Source: Methylobacteriaceae bacterium
GTDB taxonomy: Bacteria > Pseudomonadota > Alphaproteobacteria > Rhizobiales > Beijerinckiaceae
DNA: 44,082 nucleotides
Direction of reading: 5' to 3'
Assembly: GCA_016793505.1 (NCBI GenBank)
Contig: JAEULW010000104.1
Location: forward strand, 1 to 44,082
The notes below the pieces were generated by a model, which saw nothing but the letters and a program-made list of their open reading frames with translations, did no database searches and was not told the DNA's origin. Position numbers and translations under genes: made by a program. Positions 14,261 to 44,082 of this stretch are shown here, in pieces (position 1 is the stretch's first letter; the number at the start of each line of letters is the position of its first letter).

Positions 14261-15958
14261 ATGATCAGCCGCAGGCAATTCCTGCAGGCGACGGCGGCGG
14301 CTGGCCTTCTGGTCGGCGCCGCCGGCGCCGGACCGCTCGGCCGCCTCGCCGCGCAGCAAAGACTGTCGCAGACCGATCTCCTGCGCTTCGAGAAGCCGGG
14401 CACGGCGACGATTCTCTACGTCACCGACATCCACGCCCAGCTCGTGCCGCTGCATTTCCGCGAGCCCTCGATCAATCTGGGCGTCGGCCCGGCGAATGGC
14501 CGGCCGCCGCATCTGACCGACGAGGCGTTCCGCAAGCATTTCGGCGTCGCCGCCGGCTCGGCCGACGCCTTCGCGCTGACCTCGGACGATTTCGCCGCGC
14601 TGGCGAAGACCTACGGCCGCATGGGCGGCATGGACCGCCTCGCGACGCTGATCGGCGCGATCCGCGCCGAGCGCGGCGCCGACAAGGTGCTGCTGCTCGA
14701 CGGCGGCGACACATGGCAGGGTTCGTGGACCTCGCTGAAGACCAATGCGCAGGACATGGTCGACATCCAGACCGCGCTCGGCGTCGACGCGATGACCTCG
14801 CACTGGGAGTTCACCTTCGGCGAGGCGCGCGTGAAAGAGATCGCCGACAAGGCGCCTTTCGCCTTCCTCGCCCAGAACGTGCGCGACAAGGAGTTCGGCG
14901 ACGAGGTCTTCAAGCCGCGCGCGGAGTTCGAGAAGGGCGGCGTCAAGATCGCGGTGATCGGCCAGGCCTTCCCGCGCACGCCGATCTCCAATCCCGCCTG
15001 GATGATCGAGAAGTGGGAATTCGGCCTGCGCGAGGACGAGGTGCAGAAGCAGGTCGACGAAGCGCGCGCCGGCGGCGCAGCGGTCGTCGTGCTGCTCTCC
15101 CACAACGGCTACGACGTCGATCACAAGATGGCGGGGCGCGTGAAGGGGCTCGACGTCATCCTCGCCGCGCATACGCATGACGCGATCCCGACGACGCAGC
15201 GCGTCGGCGAGACGCTGATCGTCGCGGCGGGCTCGCATGGCAAGTTTCTCGCCCGGCTCGATCTCGACGTCGCCGGCGGCAAGGTGACCGGCCACCGCTT
15301 CCGGCTCATTCCGGTGTTCTCCGACGCGATCGCGCCGGACCCGACGATGAAGGCGCTGGTCGAGAAGATCCGCGCGCCCTACGCGAAGGACCTTGCGCGC
15401 GAACTGGCGCGCACCGAATCGCTGCTCTACCGCCGCGGCAATTTCAACGGCACCTTCGACGACCTCATCTGTCAGGCGATGCTGAAGGAGCGCGACGCGG
15501 AGATTTCGCTGTCGCCCGGCTTCCGCTGGGGCGGCACGCTCATCCCCGGCGACGCGATCACCTTCGAGGCGCTGGCGAACGCCACGGCGATGACCTATCC
15601 CGCCTGCTACCGGCAGGAGATGACCGGCGCGCAGCTGAAGGCGATTCTGGAAGACGTCGCCGACAACATCTTCCACCCCGATCCCTATTTCCAGGGCGGC
15701 GGCGACATGGTGCGCGTCGGCGGCGTCGGCTACACGATCGATGTCGGAAAGCCCGTCAACCAGCGCATTTCCGGCCTCACCGAACTGAAAACCGGCAAGC
15801 CGCTCGACGCCGATCGCATGTATGTCGTGGCGGGCTGGGCGAGCGTCAACCGGGCCACCGAAGGGCCGCCGATCTGGGAGGTGGTGGAAAAGCACCTCGC
15901 CGCGGTCAAGACGGTGAAGCTCGAACCCAACACATCCGTCAAAGTCGTCGGAGCCTGA
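14261..15958 (+). CDS. soxB: Thiosulfohydrolase SoxB
   Basis: SoxB releases sulfate by hydrolysing the terminal sulfonate from SoxY-bound intermediates in the periplasm. The 565 residues begin with a strong twin-arginine signal (SRRQFLQATAAAG). The metallophosphoesterase-like core is visible as 'YVTDIHAQL', 'LLLDGGDTWQGS', 'SHWEFTFGEARV', 'LLSHNGYDVD' and 'ILAAHTHDAIP', which hold the dimanganese ligands. The C-terminal 5'-nucleotidase-like domain follows from about residue 360. Length and motif order are normal. It is preceded by the 39-bp tandem repeat and followed by soxC after 6 bases. Confidence 0.97.
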   Translation: MISRRQFLQATAAAGLLVGAAGAGPLGRLAAQQRLSQTDLLRFEKPGTATILYVTDIHAQLVPLHFREPSINLGVGPANGRPPHLTDEAFRKHFGVAAGSADAFALTSDDFAALAKTYGRMGGMDRLATLIGAIRAERGADKVLLLDGGDTWQGSWTSLKTNAQDMVDIQTALGVDAMTSHWEFTFGEARVKEIADKAPFAFLAQNVRDKEFGDEVFKPRAEFEKGGVKIAVIGQAFPRTPISNPAWMIEKWEFGLREDEVQKQVDEARAGGAAVVVLLSHNGYDVDHKMAGRVKGLDVILAAHTHDAIPTTQRVGETLIVAAGSHGKFLARLDLDVAGGKVTGHRFRLIPVFSDAIAPDPTMKALVEKIRAPYAKDLARELARTESLLYRRGNFNGTFDDLICQAMLKERDAEISLSPGFRWGGTLIPGDAITFEALANATAMTYPACYRQEMTGAQLKAILEDVADNIFHPDPYFQGGGDMVRVGGVGYTIDVGKPVNQRISGLTELKTGKPLDADRMYVVAGWASVNRATEGPPIWEVVEKHLAAVKTVKLEPNTSVKVVGA

Positions 15959-15964
15959 GCGACC

Positions 15965-17218
15965 ATGTCAGACAAGACCGTCAATCGTCGCGCTTTCATG
16001 ACCGCTGCGGGCCTTGCCGGCGCGGCCGTCGCGACGGGCGCGCGGGCGCAGACGCCCGATCCGCTGATCACAGAAGTGCAGCCCTGGAACAAGCAGCTCG
16101 GCGACGGCGTGCAGGCGAACCCTTACGGCTCGCCCTCGAAATTCGAGAAGCACGTGGTTCGCCGCGATGTCGAGTGGTTGACGGTGAGCCGCGAATCCTC
16201 GGTGAACTTCACGCCGCTGCACGAACTCGACGGAATCATCACGCCGTCGGGCCTGTGCTTCGAGCGCCATCACGGCGGCGTCGCCGAGATCGAGCCGGGC
16301 AAGCACCGGCTGATGATCCACGGCCTCGTCGACAAGCCGCTCGTCTACACGATGGACGATCTCAAGCGCTTCCCCGGCCGGATCAATCGCGCCTATTTCC
16401 TCGAATGCGCCGCCAACAGCGGCATGGAGTGGAAGGGCGCGCAGCTCAACGGCTGCCAGTTCACGCATGGCATGGTGCACAATGTCTGGTACGCCGGCCT
16501 GCCGCTGAAGGCGCTGCTCGATCAGGCGGGCGTGAAGACCAACGGCAAGTGGCTGCTCGCCGAGGGCGCGGATTCGGCCGGCATGACGCGCTCGATCCCG
16601 ATCGACAAGGCGATGAAGGACTGCATGGTCGCCTGGAACATGAACGGCGAGGCGCTGCGCCCGGAACAGGGCTATCCGCTGCGCCTCGTCGTGCCGGGCT
16701 GGGAAGGCAACATGTGGGTGAAGTGGCTGCGCCGTCTCGAGATCGGCGATCAGCCCTGGCACCATCGCGAGGAGACGTCGAAATACACCGACCTGCTCGC
16801 CGACGGCCGCTCGCGCCGGTTCACCTGGATCATGGACGCCAAGTCCGTCGTCACCAATCCGTCGCCGCAGGCGCCTTTGCGCGCCAAGGGGCCGAATGTG
16901 CTGACCGGCCTCGCCTGGTCCGGCCGCGGCGCGATCAAGCGCGTCGACGTGTCGCTCGACGGCGGCCGCAACTGGACGACGGCGCGCATCGAGGGGCCGG
17001 TGCTGCCGCTGTCGCTGACGCGCTTCTATCTCGATTTCGACTGGGACGGGCGCGAACTGCTGGTGCAGTCGCGCGCCATGGACGACACCGGCTACGTGCA
17101 GCCGACGAAGTCGGAGTTGCGGGCGGTGCGCGGCGTCAACTCGATCTACCACAACAACGGCATCCAGACCTGGCTGGTGCGCGGCGACGGAGAGACGGAA
17201 AATGTCGAGATTTCGTGA
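15965..17218 (+). CDS. soxC: Sulfane dehydrogenase molybdenum subunit SoxC
   Basis: SoxC is the molybdopterin subunit of the SoxCD sulfur dehydrogenase, which oxidises the sulfane sulfur left on SoxY with a six-electron transfer. The 417 residues have a twin-arginine signal (NRRAFMTAAGLAG) and the sulfite-oxidase fold: 'FLECAANSGMEWKG' (candidate Mo-ligand Cys), 'RLVVPGWEGNMWVKWLRRLEI' and the C-terminal dimer domain ending 'GVNSIYHNNGIQTWLVRGDG'. Presence of soxCD predicts complete oxidation to sulfate without stored sulfur globules. Its 3' end overlaps the soxD start by 17 bases. Confidence 0.96.
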   Translation: MSDKTVNRRAFMTAAGLAGAAVATGARAQTPDPLITEVQPWNKQLGDGVQANPYGSPSKFEKHVVRRDVEWLTVSRESSVNFTPLHELDGIITPSGLCFERHHGGVAEIEPGKHRLMIHGLVDKPLVYTMDDLKRFPGRINRAYFLECAANSGMEWKGAQLNGCQFTHGMVHNVWYAGLPLKALLDQAGVKTNGKWLLAEGADSAGMTRSIPIDKAMKDCMVAWNMNGEALRPEQGYPLRLVVPGWEGNMWVKWLRRLEIGDQPWHHREETSKYTDLLADGRSRRFTWIMDAKSVVTNPSPQAPLRAKGPNVLTGLAWSGRGAIKRVDVSLDGGRNWTTARIEGPVLPLSLTRFYLDFDWDGRELLVQSRAMDDTGYVQPTKSELRAVRGVNSIYHNNGIQTWLVRGDGETENVEIS

Positions 17219-17858
17219 GCTCGTGATCGCCGCGGCGCTGCTCGCGTGCGGCCCGGCGTTCGCGCAGTCTGCGCCGCCGGTCGCGCTCGGCCGTCCCGCC
17301 CTGCCGCAGGAGATCGCGGCCTGGGACATCGACATCCGGCCCGACGGCGTCGGCCTGCCGCCGGGCAAGGGCTCGGTCAAGGACGGCGAGCAAATCTATC
17401 TCGAGCGCTGCGCCGCCTGTCACGGCGAATTCGGCGAGGGCGCGGGGCGTTATCCCGTGCTGGTCGGCGGGCAGGGCACGCTGACCAAGGACGCGCCCGA
17501 CAAGACGATCGGTTCGTTCTGGCCCTACGCCTCGACCGTGTTCGACTATGTGCGCCGCGCCATGCCGTTCGGCGACGCGCAGTCGCTGACCGCCGACGAG
17601 ACCTATGCGCTCACCGCCTATCTGCTCGCGATGAACGAGGTGGTGAAGGATGATTTCGTGCTGTCGAAGGAGAACTTCGCCTCGGTCAAGCTGGGCAATG
17701 TCGGCGCCTTCTACGACGATGACCGCGAGACGACGGAGAAGGCGTTCTGGCGCGAGCCCTGCATGAAGGACTGCGCCAGGGAGCCGGCGAAGATTCTCAA
17801 TCGCGCCCGCGCGCTCGACGTGACGCCCGACTCCAAGACGGGCCCGAAGGTCGAATGA
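17202..17858 (+). CDS. soxD: SoxD, cytochrome c subunit of sulfane dehydrogenase (monohaem form)
   Basis: SoxD accepts the electrons released by SoxC. The 218 residues have a Sec signal ending 'GPAFAQ' and one haem site CAACHG with 'YPVLVGGQGTL' and a Met ligand in 'AMPFGDAQSL'. The Paracoccus protein is clearly longer and has two haems; here only the first haem domain is present, followed by a tail with 'EPCMKDC', which may be a disulfide. The stop overlaps the next start (ATGA), and that next gene also encodes one haem domain, so the second haem could have become a separate polypeptide. Role is sure, electron path less so. Confidence 0.9.
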   Translation: MSRFRELVIAAALLACGPAFAQSAPPVALGRPALPQEIAAWDIDIRPDGVGLPPGKGSVKDGEQIYLERCAACHGEFGEGAGRYPVLVGGQGTLTKDAPDKTIGSFWPYASTVFDYVRRAMPFGDAQSLTADETYALTAYLLAMNEVVKDDFVLSKENFASVKLGNVGAFYDDDRETTEKAFWREPCMKDCAREPAKILNRARALDVTPDSKTGPKVE

Positions 17859-18193
17859 GCCGCCGCGCCGCATTCGCGCTCGCGCTGTTCGCCGCCGCCA
17901 CGGGCGCGGCGGCGCAGCAGCATGCGCAGCCGCAGGGGCCGGCCGACGGCGATCTCGAACTCGGCAAGTTCCTGTCCGAGACCTGCGTCGCCTGTCACCA
18001 GATCAGCGGCCGGATGAGCGGCGCGGTGCCGACCATCGTCGGCTTTCCGCCGCCGGCCTTCGTCGAGGCGATGCAGCAATACAAGAACGGCTTGCGTCCG
18101 AACGAAACGATGCGCACGCTCGCCGCGTCGCTGTCCGACGAGGAGATCCGCGCGCTCGCCGCCTATTTTGGCAGCGTCAAGCCGACTTATTGA
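17855..18193 (+). CDS. soxE: Small monohaem cytochrome c, SoxE/FccA-like
   Basis: This 112-residue exported cytochrome has a signal peptide ending 'GAAAQQ', a haem site CVACHQ and a Met in 'NETMRTLAASLSDEEIRALAAYF'. The segment 'GAVPTIVGFPPPAFVEAMQQYKNG' resembles the cytochrome subunit of flavocytochrome c sulfide dehydrogenase. SoxF, the matching flavoprotein, lies two genes downstream, so electron acceptor for SoxF is the likely role. Paracoccus SoxE has two haems, this one only one. A role as a detached second haem domain of SoxD is the alternative. Confidence 0.8.
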   Translation: MSRRAAFALALFAAATGAAAQQHAQPQGPADGDLELGKFLSETCVACHQISGRMSGAVPTIVGFPPPAFVEAMQQYKNGLRPNETMRTLAASLSDEEIRALAAYFGSVKPTY

Positions 18194-18204
18194 GGGAGGC
18201 CGAC

Positions 18205-18741
18205 ATGACGCAAGTGGATCGTCGCGCAGCGCTCGCCGCGCTTGCAGGGCTGGCGAGCGCCGCGCCCGCCATGGCCCAGACCGCAGCGCCTACCGCGCCG
18301 CGCGTCGCCAAGGCGGTGACGCCGCTCAAGGAGCTGCGCAAGGAGGCGGACGTCGCCTGCCTGTATCACTGCGATTTCGGCGATCCCGCGCGCTTCTCGC
18401 AGATGCTGGTCAATATCGGCAATCACTATTCGGCCTATGGGGCCGATCCTTTCGCGCTGCAGCTCGCGATCGTGGCGCATGGGCCGGGGATCAAGTTCTT
18501 CCTGTCGAGCCTCGAGGAGACGCCGTGGCGCGACGAGGCGACCGTGCCGCAGATCTGGCCGCGCGTCGAGGCGCTGTTCAAGAACGGACTGCGGGTCCAT
18601 CTCTGCGACATCACCTTCCAGCGCCAGAAGGTCGACCGGGCGCTGGCGCGCGCGCACGACAGCGTGTCGGTGACGCCGTCCGGCGTCGCCACAGTCGCGG
18701 ATCTGCAGAGCAAGGGTTTCGGCTACATCAAGATCGGCTGA
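18205..18741 (+). CDS. Exported DsrE-family protein within the sox operon
   Basis: This 178-residue protein has a DsrE/DsrF-like fold: 'DVACLYHCDFGDPARFSQMLVNIGNH', 'LQLAIVAHGPGIKFFL' and 'RVHLCDITFQRQKV'. Most DsrE-like sulfur carriers are cytoplasmic, but this one begins 'VDRRAALAALAGLASAAPAMAQ', a twin-arginine-like export signal. Cys52, Cys56 and Cys134 are candidates for persulfide binding; Cys134 sits where family members place the carrier cysteine. The start at 18205 has GGAGG five bases upstream; a TTG at 18190 overlapping soxE was rejected. Between soxE and soxF, it may carry sulfur to or from the SoxEF sulfide dehydrogenase. That role is inference. Confidence 0.82.
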   Translation: MTQVDRRAALAALAGLASAAPAMAQTAAPTAPRVAKAVTPLKELRKEADVACLYHCDFGDPARFSQMLVNIGNHYSAYGADPFALQLAIVAHGPGIKFFLSSLEETPWRDEATVPQIWPRVEALFKNGLRVHLCDITFQRQKVDRALARAHDSVSVTPSGVATVADLQSKGFGYIKIG

Positions 18742-18764
18742 CGCCGACGGGAAGGGAGGACTTC

Positions 18765-20033
18765 ATGACGATTTCACGCCGCGCCTTTGCTTTCGGCGCT
18801 TGCTCGACGGCAACCGCGCTCGCCGCGCCGATCGTGGCGCGCGCACAGGCTCGCCCGCGCGTCGTCGTCATCGGCGGCGGCCCCGGCGGCTCGACCGTGG
18901 CGAAGTATCTGGCGCGCGATTCCGCCGGCGCGATCGACGTCGTGATGATCGATCCCTCCGACTTCTACATGACCTGCTTCCATTCCAACCTGTGGGTCGG
19001 CGGACTGAAGAACCCGGGTCAGATCACCTTCAATCGCGTGCCGATCGCCAAGCACGGCGTCAAGTACGTCAAGCAGTTCGCCACGCGGATCGACCGCGAG
19101 CGCAAGATGGTGGCGCTCGCCGACGGCGCGCAGGTGCCTTACGACCGTCTCGTCGTCGCCCCTGGCATCGATCTCGACTACGCCTCGGTGCCGGGCTGGT
19201 CGAAGGCTGCAGAAGAGGCGATGCCGCATGCCTGGAAGGCGGGGCCGCAGACCGAATTGCTGATCCGCCGCATCGACGCCGTTCCGGACGGCGGCCTCAT
19301 CGTGATGATCGCGCCGCCGAACCCCTATCGCTGTCCGCCCGGACCCTACGAGCGCGTCTCGATGATGGCGGCGCGGCTGAAGGCGCAGGGCAAGACGAAG
19401 GCGCGCATCGTCATCCTCGATCCGAAGGAGAGCTTCTCCAAGCAGCCGCTGTTCCAGCAGGGCTGGGAGAAGCACTATCCGGGCGTCGTCGAATGGCTCG
19501 GGCCGAAGGTGCATGAAGGCGTGAAAAGCGTCGATCCGAAGACCGGCGAGGTCGTCACCGGCTTCGAGACCTACAAGGCCGATCTCGTCAACGTCATTCC
19601 CGCGCAGATGGCCGGCGCGATCGCGCGCGAGGCGGGGCTGACGGGAACGGGCAAGTTCTGCACGATCGATCCCGCCAACATGCGCTCGACCGTCGATCCG
19701 GCGATCAGCGTGCTCGGCGATTCCTCGATCGCCGGCGACATGCCGAAATCGGCCTTCGCCGCGAATTCGCAGGCCAAGGTGGCGGCGCAGGCGCTGCGCG
19801 CCGAGCTGACCGGCGCGCGCGCTTTCCCGGCGCGCTACGCCAACACCTGCTGGTCGCTGATCACGGCGGACGACTGCGTCAAGGTCGGCGGCGTCTATGC
19901 GCCGGCTGACGGCAAGATCGCGGCGACCAGCACCTTCGTCTCGAAGCTCGAGGAGACCGAGCAGCAGCGCCACCTGCAGACGGAGGAAAATCTCGGCTGG
20001 TATTCCGGCTTCGTCGCCGACGTGTTCGGCTGA
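18765..20033 (+). CDS. soxF: Flavoprotein SoxF, FccB-type sulfide dehydrogenase subunit
   Basis: SoxF is the FAD subunit of a flavocytochrome c sulfide dehydrogenase that oxidises sulfide in the periplasm and passes electrons to SoxE. The 422 residues begin with a twin-arginine signal (ISRRAFAFG). Domains: an N-terminal FAD Rossmann motif 'VVVIGGGPGGSTVAKYL' (about residues 33-50), a redox Cys in 'SDFYMTCFHSNLWVGG', a central 'PPNPYRCPPGPYERVSMMA' region with the partner Cys, 'VLGDSSIAGDMPKSAFAANSQAKV', and a C-terminal FccB domain with 'NTCWSLITADDCVKVGG'. It is the last gene of the operon and is followed by a strong terminator. Confidence 0.94.
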   Translation: MTISRRAFAFGACSTATALAAPIVARAQARPRVVVIGGGPGGSTVAKYLARDSAGAIDVVMIDPSDFYMTCFHSNLWVGGLKNPGQITFNRVPIAKHGVKYVKQFATRIDRERKMVALADGAQVPYDRLVVAPGIDLDYASVPGWSKAAEEAMPHAWKAGPQTELLIRRIDAVPDGGLIVMIAPPNPYRCPPGPYERVSMMAARLKAQGKTKARIVILDPKESFSKQPLFQQGWEKHYPGVVEWLGPKVHEGVKSVDPKTGEVVTGFETYKADLVNVIPAQMAGAIAREAGLTGTGKFCTIDPANMRSTVDPAISVLGDSSIAGDMPKSAFAANSQAKVAAQALRAELTGARAFPARYANTCWSLITADDCVKVGGVYAPADGKIAATSTFVSKLEETEQQRHLQTEENLGWYSGFVADVFG

Positions 20034-41157: not shown

Positions 41158-41796
41158 TCACCAGCGCAGCAGGCGGGCGGCGAGCAGCGCGCCGAGGCCG
41201 GAGACGGCGAGGGCGGCGAGCGAATACCAGGCAAGGACGAACAGCGGGCTGTCGTCGGTGCAGTGCGTGGCGTAGACCGCCGCCGCGACGCCTGCCGCGG
41301 CGAGGCCGGCGAAGGCGCCGGCGCGGGCCGGCCGCTCCGGCGCGCCGGCGCGCAGCGCCGCCAGCAGGGCGGCGAGCGGGACGAGCGCCATCAACGGGAT
41401 CAGCGTCAGGCAATAGACGGCGTTGGTTCCGATCAGCCGGCGCGGCCAGCCCGCGGGGCCGAGCGCGGCGAACTCCCAGGCGATCCAAAGCGCCAGCGCC
41501 GCCAGCGCGGCGGCGAGCGGCAGGGCCGCCGCGCCGGGCCGCGCGCCCGGCGCCGACAGGCGCAGCGCCAGAGCGAGGCCGCCGCCGGCGGCGAGCGCGG
41601 CGACGCCCATCTTCAATCCGGTCGCCACCGCCGCCGAGGGCAGGGCGATGTCGTGGCGGACGCCGACAAGAATCAGAAACATCAGTCCGATCAGGGCCGC
41701 CGCCGGCGCCAGCGCCATCAGGGCGCGGCCGGAGAGCGGCCGGGCCGCCTGCGGCGGATCGGCGGCGAGCGCGGCGATCAGGTCGTCAGTGCGCAT
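41158..41796 (-). CDS. nrsF: NrsF-like membrane anti-sigma factor (DUF1109)
   Basis: This 212-residue protein has six predicted membrane helices after a short polar N-terminus ('[22 protein letters not shown]'), the DUF1109 layout. In Caulobacter NrsF holds SigF inactive at the membrane and two cysteines, Cys131 and Cys181 as I recall, are needed for signal response. Here Cys129 ('NAVYCLTLI') and Cys179 ('ATHCTDDSP') have the same 50-residue spacing, and there are no other cysteines. The start overlaps the sigF end by 11 bases, so sigma and anti-sigma are made together. The likely signal is copper, chromate or thiol stress. Confidence 0.88.
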   Translation of the reverse strand: MRTDDLIAALAADPPQAARPLSGRALMALAPAAALIGLMFLILVGVRHDIALPSAAVATGLKMGVAALAAGGGLALALRLSAPGARPGAAALPLAAALAALALWIAWEFAALGPAGWPRRLIGTNAVYCLTLIPLMALVPLAALLAALRAGAPERPARAGAFAGLAAAGVAAAVYATHCTDDSPLFVLAWYSLAALAVSGLGALLAARLLRW

Positions 41797-42340
41797 CGTC
41801 GGCCTTCCTGTACAGCTCGGCGAGCTGCTTCAGCGCCCGATGCAGGGCGACGCGCACCGCGCCTTCGCTCATCTCCAGTTCGCGCCCTACTTCAGCGGCG
41901 GCGCGGCCCTCGATCGACATGGCGAGGACGATGCGGCGGCTGCGCTCGGGCAGGCGGTCGACAAGGCGGCGCACATCGGCGTCCGCATGCGGCTCGCCCT
42001 GCGGGGCGGGCAGGGCGTCGATCAGATCGTCGATCGGCACAGCGTCGCGCGCGCCGCGCCGGCGCAGCGCGTCGATCAGCTTGTAGCGCGCGATGGCGTT
42101 GAGCCAGGGGCCGATCGGCCGGTCCTCGCTCCAGGTGTCGCGCTTCAGATGGATCGCCAACAGCGTCTCCTGCACGATGTCCTCGACCTCGGCGTTGCCG
42201 CGCCCGGCGCGGGCCAGCGCGGCGCGGGCGGCGGCGCGCGCCAGCGGCGCGGCCTCGGCGAGGAAGCGCCGATAGGCCGCCTCGTCGCCCGCCCGGGCGG
42301 CGCGCATCAGGTGCGCCAGTCGTTCCTCGGCAGCTCCCAT
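41786..42340 (-). CDS. sigF: SigF-type ECF sigma factor
   Basis: This 184-residue ECF sigma factor has region 2 '[25 protein letters not shown]', '[22 protein letters not shown]', '[22 protein letters not shown]' (-10 recognition) and region 4 '[44 protein letters not shown]' (-35 recognition). Start at MGAAEERL was chosen because an upstream in-frame ATG lies on its promoter. The leader would then be only about ten bases, with no ribosome site, so translation may be near leaderless. It is followed by nrsF and diverges from the bufABC genes; both directions carry GTAACG-N16-CGAA, so SigF probably activates itself and the bufferin genes. Confidence 0.9.
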
Positions 42341-42357
42341 GCGCGTCGAATATCTGG

Positions 42358-42383
42358 TTCGGACGCGGCGCGCCATTCGTTAC
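42358..42383 (-). promoter_or_regulatory. SigF-type promoter of sigF-nrsF
   Basis: On the minus strand GTAACG (42383-42378), a 16-base spacer and CGAA (42361-42358). This fits the Caulobacter SigF form GTAACC-N16-CGAA with one change, shared with the opposing promoter. It predicts a start about ten bases before the sigF ATG. Confidence 0.75.
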
Positions 42384-42447
42384 ATCGGCGCGCCGATCAC
42401 CTGTCGCTCGCGAAACGCCGGCCCGTCTTCACGAACGCGTGCGCGCG

Positions 42448-42473
42448 GTAACGGCTCCGGCCGGCCCTGCGAA
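42448..42473 (+). promoter_or_regulatory. SigF-type promoter of bufABC
   Basis: GTAACG (42448-42453), a 16-base spacer and CGAA (42470-42473), identical in fixed bases and spacing to the sigF promoter on the other strand. It predicts a leader of about 40 bases before bufA. Confidence 0.78.
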
Positions 42474-42521
42474 AAGTCGGCATGGGTCGGACGGGCCGGC
42501 CCGCCAACGGGAGATCATCCG

Positions 42522-42830
42522 ATGTCGCACCGCCTCGACCGCCGCGCCGTTTCGCTGGCGCTCGCCGCCTCCTTCTCGACCGCGCTGGCGCTGGCCGCCG
42601 CCCCTGCCCAGGCGCAGGACGCCGGCAAGGAGAAGTGCTTCGGCGTGTCGCTGAAGGGCCAGAACGACTGCGCCGCCGGGCCCGGAACGACCTGCGCCGG
42701 CACGTCCAAGGTCGACTATCAGGGCAACGCCTGGAAATACGTCGCCAAGGGCTCGTGCGAGAAGATGGCGTCGAAGTCCTCGCCGAGCGGCTTCGGCCAG
42801 CTGAAGGAGTTCAAGGAGAAGAAGGCCTGA
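42522..42830 (+). CDS. bufA: Bufferin-1-type precursor peptide (DUF2282)
   Basis: This 102-residue precursor has a Sec signal of about 32 residues (ending 'AAPAQAQ') and a short Cys-containing domain: Cys39 in '[10 protein letters not shown]', Cys50 and Cys58 in '[15 protein letters not shown]', and Cys79 in 'KGSCEKM'. This is the BufA1/DUF2282 pattern. In characterised bufferins the peptide is modified on cysteines by a DUF692 enzyme to form heterocycles and binds copper in the periplasm. A GGGAG ribosome site lies eight bases before the ATG; upstream in-frame ATGs overlap the promoter and were rejected. The C-terminus is Lys-rich ('LKEFKEKKA'). bufB follows after 36 bases. Confidence 0.9.
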
Positions 42831-42866
42831 TCGGCCGCAAGAGCCGCCGCGCGGGGAGATCGCGTC

Positions 42867-43751
42867 ATGACGAATCGACATCCCGCGAGGGCGGCGCAGG
42901 GCCTGCCGGCCCGCGCCGGGATCGGGCTGAAGCTCGAGCACGCCCGCGCGTTGCTCGACGAGGCGCCCGATCTCGGCTTTCTCGAGGTCCATGCCGAGAA
43001 TTTCATGGGCGCGGGCGGGCCGCCGCACGCTTTTCTGACGGCGCTCCGGGCGCGCTATCCGCTGTCGCTGCACGGCGTCGGCCTGTCGATCGGCGGCGAG
43101 GCGCCGCTCGACGAGGCGCATCTCGATCGCCTGGCGGCGCTGACCGAGCGCTACGAGCCGGCGTCCTTCTCCGAGCATCTGGCCTGGTCGACGCACGATA
43201 CGGCCTATCTCAACGATCTGCTGCCGGTCGCCTATGACCGGCCGACGCTCGCCCGCGTGGTCGAGCACATCGACCGCGTGCAGTCGCGGCTGCGGCGGCC
43301 GATGCTGCTCGAAAACCCCTCGACCTACGTCGCCTTCGCGGCGAGCGAGATGGACGAGATCGACTTCATCGCCGAGGCGGCGCGGCGCAGCGGCTGCGGG
43401 CTGCTGCTCGACGTCAACAACGTGCAGGTGAGCTGCGTCAATCACGGGCGCGACCCGGTCGCCTATCTACAGGCCTTTCCGGTCGAACGCGTGGGCGAAA
43501 TCCACCTCGCCGGCTACGCCGAGGATCGCGACGACGCCGGCGACAGGCTGCTGATCGACGCGCATGACCGGCCGGTCGGCGAGGACGTCTGGAAGCTCTA
43601 CCGCCGCGCGCTACGCCGCGTCGGGCCGGCAGCGACGCTGATCGAATGGGACAATGACGTGCCGGCGCTGCCGGTCCTGCTGGCCGAGGCGGCGAAGGCG
43701 GAGGCGGCGCTCGGCGAGGCGTCGGATTTCAACCGGCGGCGGGCGTCATGA
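42867..43751 (+). CDS. bufB: DUF692 multinuclear iron enzyme, bufferin synthase BufB
   Basis: This 294-residue TIM-barrel enzyme belongs to DUF692, the family of MbnB, which uses a multi-iron centre and oxygen to convert cysteine in a peptide into a heterocycle. Metal-ligand segments are '[11 protein letters not shown]', '[10 protein letters not shown]', 'LLENPSTYV', '[16 protein letters not shown]', '[10 protein letters not shown]', '[10 protein letters not shown]' and 'TLIEWDND'. It would act on the cysteines of BufA in the cytoplasm before export. It sits directly after bufA and overlaps bufC (ATGA). Confidence 0.92.
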
Positions 43752-44082
43752 ACCGCGCCTTCGCCGCCGCGCTGCTCAGCCCCGGCGCGCCGGCGCCGCC
43801 GGGCCTGACGACGTGGAACGGCTCCGACCCGGCGCGCCGTTTCGCGGTGTATCGCAACAACGTCGTCGTCTCGCTGATCGAGGCGCTGTCCGGGGCGTTT
43901 CCGGTGACGCGCGAACTCGTCGGCGAGGAGTTCTTCCGGGCGATGGCGCGGGAATTTGCGCTCGGCCATCCGCCGCGCTCGCCGGTGATGGCCCGCTTCG
44001 GCGAGGAACTTCCCGGCTTCATCGCGGCCTTCGCGCCGGCGCGCGAGTTGCCGTGGCTCGCCGACGTGGCGGCGCTCGAGGC
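43748..44082 (+). CDS. bufC: DUF2063 partner protein BufC (3' end outside window)
   Basis: Only the first 111 residues are present. '[59 protein letters not shown]' is the N-terminal half of DUF2063, the protein that partners DUF692 enzymes and is thought to bind and present the precursor peptide, like MbnC for MbnB. The start overlaps the bufB stop (ATGA), so both should be made in equal amounts. A bufD-like DoxX membrane gene often follows in known clusters; this cannot be checked here. Confidence 0.9.

Follow-up and report, generated by a model that had tools for sequence, protein, structure and literature searches.

A Buf1 bufferin locus with facing SigF promoters in a Methylobacteriaceae bacterium, and the promoter dialects of its ECF16 relatives

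The right end of the 44,082-nt window, the whole stretch of DNA that was analysed (C168:1-44082), very probably carries a Buf1 bufferin locus under the control of an ECF16 sigma/anti-sigma pair, with a copper-binding peptide as its output. The genes, the paired promoter sites, their conservation and the match between a SigF residue and the promoters are all observed at this locus. Family matches, the recurrence of the promoter pair in many genomes, the agreement of SigF residue 163 with the sixth promoter base and experiments on homologues all support the core reading of Buf1 genes governed by SigF-NrsF. The points against it are that bufC is incomplete in the assembly, that the flanks of the bufA promoter are untypical, that signals beyond copper have been reported for ECF16 systems and that sigF autoregulation in Caulobacter was weak under dichromate.

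Gene content of the locus

The locus consists of two divergent gene groups. On the minus strand, nrsF, encoding a membrane anti-sigma factor (41158-41796; PF06532, E=1.6e-44), overlaps sigF, which runs in the same direction and encodes an ECF16-type sigma factor (41786-42340; PF08281/PF04542, with NCBIfam NF009165 above cut-off). On the plus strand lie bufA, a Buf1 bufferin precursor of the DUF2282 family (42522-42830; PF10048, E=8.3e-25, above cut-off); bufB, the MNIO (DUF692) bufferin maturase (42867-43751; PF05114, E=9e-105; 380.8 bits against the NCBIfam model MNIO_BufB, NF050167, whose cut-off is 310); and bufC, encoding the DUF2063 partner protein and cut by the contig end (43748-44082; PF09836, E=2.3e-28). 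These profile matches put all five genes in the places and families given by an earlier sequence-only reading, which had set sigF-nrsF opposite bufABC. NrsF, whose only cysteines are C129 and C179, scores under the cut-off of the narrow NCBIfam equivalog NF042994. The cysteines of BufA, at 39, 50, 58 and 79, are C-terminal to a Sec-type signal peptide read from the sequence, and SigF carries Arg at residue 163, in the region 4 recognition helix. Within the genome bufA is the sole copy detected and bufB the sole MNIO gene, and no second bufferin set was found.

The right edge of the window is the end of the contig, and the bufC frame stays open through the last base. The BufC match to DUF2063 covers the N-terminal half alone (43748-44080), and a search of the assembly did not recover the other half; an open frame with the rest absent from the assembly fits an interruption by the contig end. 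The same lone half, with no second piece in the assembly, could instead mark a genuinely truncated gene in a decaying locus, but a frame open to the contig's last base and the intactness of all remaining genes make this very improbable. Because the contig stops within bufC, the earlier description of the unit as self-contained is not demonstrable and was not upheld. It had also been placed beside a peptide-degradation locus rather than other metal genes. The left flank carries M81 peptidase, amidohydrolase and oligopeptide-type transporter genes; the contrast with metal genes does not stand, with one flank only in the contig. Elsewhere in the window, a Sox-type sulfur-oxidation cluster (14261-20033), with SoxB and SoxC above NCBIfam cut-offs, continues with a cytochrome c and then a flavoprotein resembling sulfide dehydrogenases.

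Facing promoters in the intergenic gap

Between the sigF start codon (42340) and that of bufA (42522) lie 181 bp (42341-42521), the gap length given earlier, and motif search confirmed the claim that GTAACG-N16-CGAA occurs in it once per strand. The minus-strand site at 42358-42383, GTAACGAATGGCGCGCCGCGTCCGAA, is preceded by a T at 42384 (TGTAACG-N16-CGAA) and is assigned as the SigF promoter of sigF-nrsF, which would then have an expected leader of only ~11 nt. The plus-strand site at 42448-42473, GTAACGGCTCCGGCCGGCCCTGCGAA, is assigned to bufABC. Both spacers are N16, and the sites stand back to back with 64 bp separating their -35 boxes. The ECF16 form (T/C)GTAAC-N17-CGAA matches both, the bufA copy without the leading T/C, and the same form and spacing occur in Caulobacter, in line with the proposed match to the known SigF promoter form. 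The bufA site has more unusual flanks than the sigF site, with G replacing T before GTAAC and A following CGAA.

How informative are such sites? The window holds no GTAACG-N16-CGAA beyond these two, and none of 100 shuffles contained two copies of the motif. A search of the whole genome (a 4.12-Mb draft), which the sequence-only reading had proposed, gave 3 sites in total, the window's two included, against 5 for the reversed control; a lone site is therefore uninformative, whereas the pair is informative. This chance-level count of lone sites is what favours the view that both copies are fortuitous and that bufA is transcribed via another sigma factor. However, one site per strand within the gap has a chance expectation of ~5e-9, and the pair is conserved among relatives picked independently of the pattern, so that a fortuitous origin is barely credible. 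The paired sites support instead the reading that a single SigF would recognize both facing promoters, and Arg163 together with G as the sixth base of both fits one SigF serving the two.

The third genomic site (C221:2953-2978, L004) lies directly before an OpgC-type gene, in a promoter-like placement, and is probably a chance occurrence. A wider SigF regulon was considered and rejected, as strict motif searches returned the two window sites and isolated ones only, one beside OpgC and one antisense where a CoA-transferase gene begins. The genome also holds an MsrP-like molybdopterin gene (C94:1-741, L166), cut by a contig end, and no SigF-like site was found upstream of this fragment (best score 6/9); in Caulobacter, SigF does control msrP (PMC3511200, PMC8224329).

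Conservation and exchange of partner genes

A species-level genome collection was scanned for mirrored promoters with C or G as the sixth base and 44-74 bp apart, and at least 119 stretches carry the pair. Among the matches listed, sigF adjoins the pair in at least 92 stretches, nearly always together with nrsF; at least 44 of these sigF-adjacent pairs face buf genes and at least 48 face other genes. Representatives of the latter are cytochrome b561 with an MsrP-like molybdoprotein, MXKDX methionine-rich peptides, MsrB and DUF1223. Within the window's order, the pair is present in 4 of 199 genomes, its own genome counted, and the reversed control gave 0.

Because pair scans select for the pattern itself, a pattern-free sample of SigF relatives was drawn by protein similarity from 385 genomes of the class. 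All twelve of the SigFs closest to the window's (L168-L179) have BufA on the opposite strand, with promoters scoring 8-9/9 on both strands, and the facing arrangement is thus the rule for this SigF lineage. On the SigF tree the type of partner facing sigF changes 11 times: the facing genes have been swapped repeatedly between bufferin and methionine-repair sets.

Several loci depart from the common layout. SigFs of the Arg163 type stand opposite BufA2 (Buf2) genes at L031:3910-4296, L056:3607-3981 and L081:1025-1419; DoxX/HvfX comes next in L031 and L056, and neither of these two loci gave a BufB match. A survey of bufferin clusters reported sigma/NrsF genes in Buf1 and not in Buf2 (PMC12452194). 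In another variant the promoter pair separates bufA from divergent bufBC (L044:3814-3910, L054:4752-4860, L090:2042-2159, L095:4883-4999) and sigF-nrsF lies farther downstream on the bufA strand, which puts precursor and maturase on opposite transcripts. Two buf clusters flank the pair in L120.

Distances between facing promoters peak near 45, 56 and 68 bp (L010-L128; at least 92 loci, among the matches listed), which may reflect increments of roughly one turn of the helix. Helical phasing was nevertheless set aside: the search spanned 44-74 bp only, the fitted period was 11.75-12, and neither the spacing in the window (64 bp) nor the 38 bp of Brucella, taken from published coordinates, falls on a peak.

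SigF residue 163 and promoter dialects

Residues in region 4 of sigma factors determine -35 specificity. In the 93-row set, among the matches listed, all 19 loci whose promoters both have G encode Arg163, and the remaining loci that cover the site encode Lys163. The pattern-free sample, with 49 distinct SigFs, gives the same division: a purine (G/A) is the sixth base of the -35 element in 27/27 promoters of Arg163 SigFs, a pyrimidine (C/T) in 30/31 of those with Lys163, and the rule is kept in 57/58 promoters altogether. The sixth base is equal in both promoters in 83 of 92 relatives among the matches listed. The Lys/Arg switch maps once on the SigF tree, so that the match reflects a single evolutionary event preserved since then, not repeated co-evolution. 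Sixth-base co-variation was accordingly dropped as independent evidence, as one switch leaves too few independent pairs.

Compared by promoter sequence, published sites divide in the same way: GTAAC(g/a) is the form recognized by Bradyrhizobium EcfF (PMC3420878) and GTAACA that of the S. meliloti RpoE7 sites (PMC6180224), while those of Caulobacter (PMC3511200) and Brucella (PMC8315932) are GTAACC. The residue 163 result offers a residue-level test of promoter choice by ECF16 sigma factors, and makes SigF targets (GTAACR or GTAACY) predictable from the sigma sequence.

Could SigF-NrsF and its facing promoters be an interchangeable sensing module for sulfur stress in the periplasm, re-coupled to one sulfur-rich payload after another, with a single dialect split into Lys163 GTAACY and Arg163 GTAACR? 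We offer this tentatively, as a possibility rather than an expectation. If true, the payloads would be Buf1 or Buf2 bufferins, methionine-rich peptides and Msr enzymes, and the dialect split would insulate the two SigF lineages from each other.

Proposed mechanism and inducing signal

On the model of homologues, the locus may work through SigF release, autoregulation, BufA modification and copper binding. NrsF at the inner membrane would keep SigF bound until its periplasmic cysteine, by homology C179, was damaged or bound metal, which would set SigF free. Free SigF would then act on both back-to-back GTAACR promoters, yielding the bufABC transcript as well as more SigF/NrsF, which would supply both gain and reset. 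At the central cysteines of BufA, C50 and C58, BufB and BufC would introduce the thiooxazole modification expected of a Buf1 cluster, and the modified peptide, once exported, would bind excess copper in the periplasm. With NrsF made alongside SigF, the loop would be both positive and self-limiting. The positive loop proposed by the sequence-only reading agrees with homologues (S. meliloti, Brucella, Bradyrhizobium, and Caulobacter under copper), with the qualifications that autoregulation was weak in Caulobacter under dichromate and that NrsF adds negative feedback.

Work on Caulobacter argues for copper. In minimal medium copper raises sigF and nrsF ~16-fold or more (log2 4.2-4.7) and induces both buf operons, and the sigF mutant is copper-sensitive (PMC8224329); Kohler et al. 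reported sigF autoregulation that is weak to modest under dichromate (PMC3511200). The Buf1 peptide is cysteine-modified, on its central cysteines, chelates copper and aids growth under copper (PMC12452194). Published ECF16 signals are varied: copper, chromate and cadmium for Caulobacter SigF (PMC3511200, PMC8224329), hypochlorite in Brucella (PMC8315932) and peroxide in Bradyrhizobium (PMC3420878), while the RpoE7 promoters of S. meliloti respond to neither peroxide, cadmium nor chromate (PMC6180224).

The oxidants among these signals favour a different reading, in which the main role of the locus is protection from oxidants (hypochlorite, peroxide, thiol damage) and not from copper, with SigF-NrsF as a sensor of sulfur damage in the periplasm and BufA as a cysteine-rich sink comparable to the methionine-rich MXKDX peptides of other ECF16 loci. 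It also gains from the fact that the same sigma/anti-sigma pair and mirrored promoters face MXKDX, MsrP-like, cytochrome b561, MsrB or DUF1223 genes across numerous genomes, and from how often the partner type has switched along the SigF tree. Set against it are the copper chelation and improved copper growth conferred by the Caulobacter Buf1 peptide and the copper sensitivity of the sigF mutant, and we regard a mainly anti-oxidant role as unlikely, if worth keeping in view beside the preferred copper-binding output.

Comparison with known systems

The closest parallels are published. In S. meliloti, RpoE7 drives its own gene and divergent DUF692/DUF2063 genes; like the window, the rpoE7-ecfR7/SMb20530-20527 locus has a divergent small membrane-protein gene with DUF692 and DUF2063 genes, and ECF16 promoters for both directions whose sixth base is a purine (there GTAACA); the S. 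meliloti pair is autoregulated (PMC6180224). It differs in having a fourth gene; the window's contig stops before bufC is complete. Caulobacter vibrioides sigF-nrsF and CC3254-3257 (buf1), which have adjacent gene numbers, resemble the window in gene families, promoter form and spacing (PMC3511200, PMC8224329); the SigF regulon, promoter constructs and NrsF cysteines have been studied there, and SigF controls CC3254-3257 (PMC3511200). However, the Caulobacter dialect is GTAACC and SigF has extra targets, a second buf operon and msrPQ, whereas the window's genome has one bufA, one MNIO gene and no SigF-like site at its MsrP-like fragment.

The bcrS-abcS/bcrXQP locus of Brucella melitensis likewise has an ECF16 pair and two facing promoters, both of them mapped there, and is autoregulated, but its partners are a methionine-rich peptide and MsrPQ, its signal is hypochlorite and its sites are GTAACC (PMC8315932). 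Autoregulation is also reported for Bradyrhizobium EcfF, and C179 of OsrA is needed for the response (PMC3420878); C129 and C179 of the window's NrsF coincide with the cysteines found important in OsrA (PMC3420878) and conserved in Brucella AbcS (PMC8315932). Buf1 clusters in general carry sigma and NrsF genes (PMC12452194).

The facing architecture, with both promoters and autoregulation, is already published for S. meliloti, and the window's locus is an ordinary further example rather than a new architecture. As one more ECF16-bufferin locus, it extends the gene pairing and twin promoters to another alphaproteobacterium. What is new are the residue 163 dialects, the repeated exchange of partners and the SigFs that face BufA2 bufferins, and the comparative link between residue 163 and promoter is more useful than the added locus itself.
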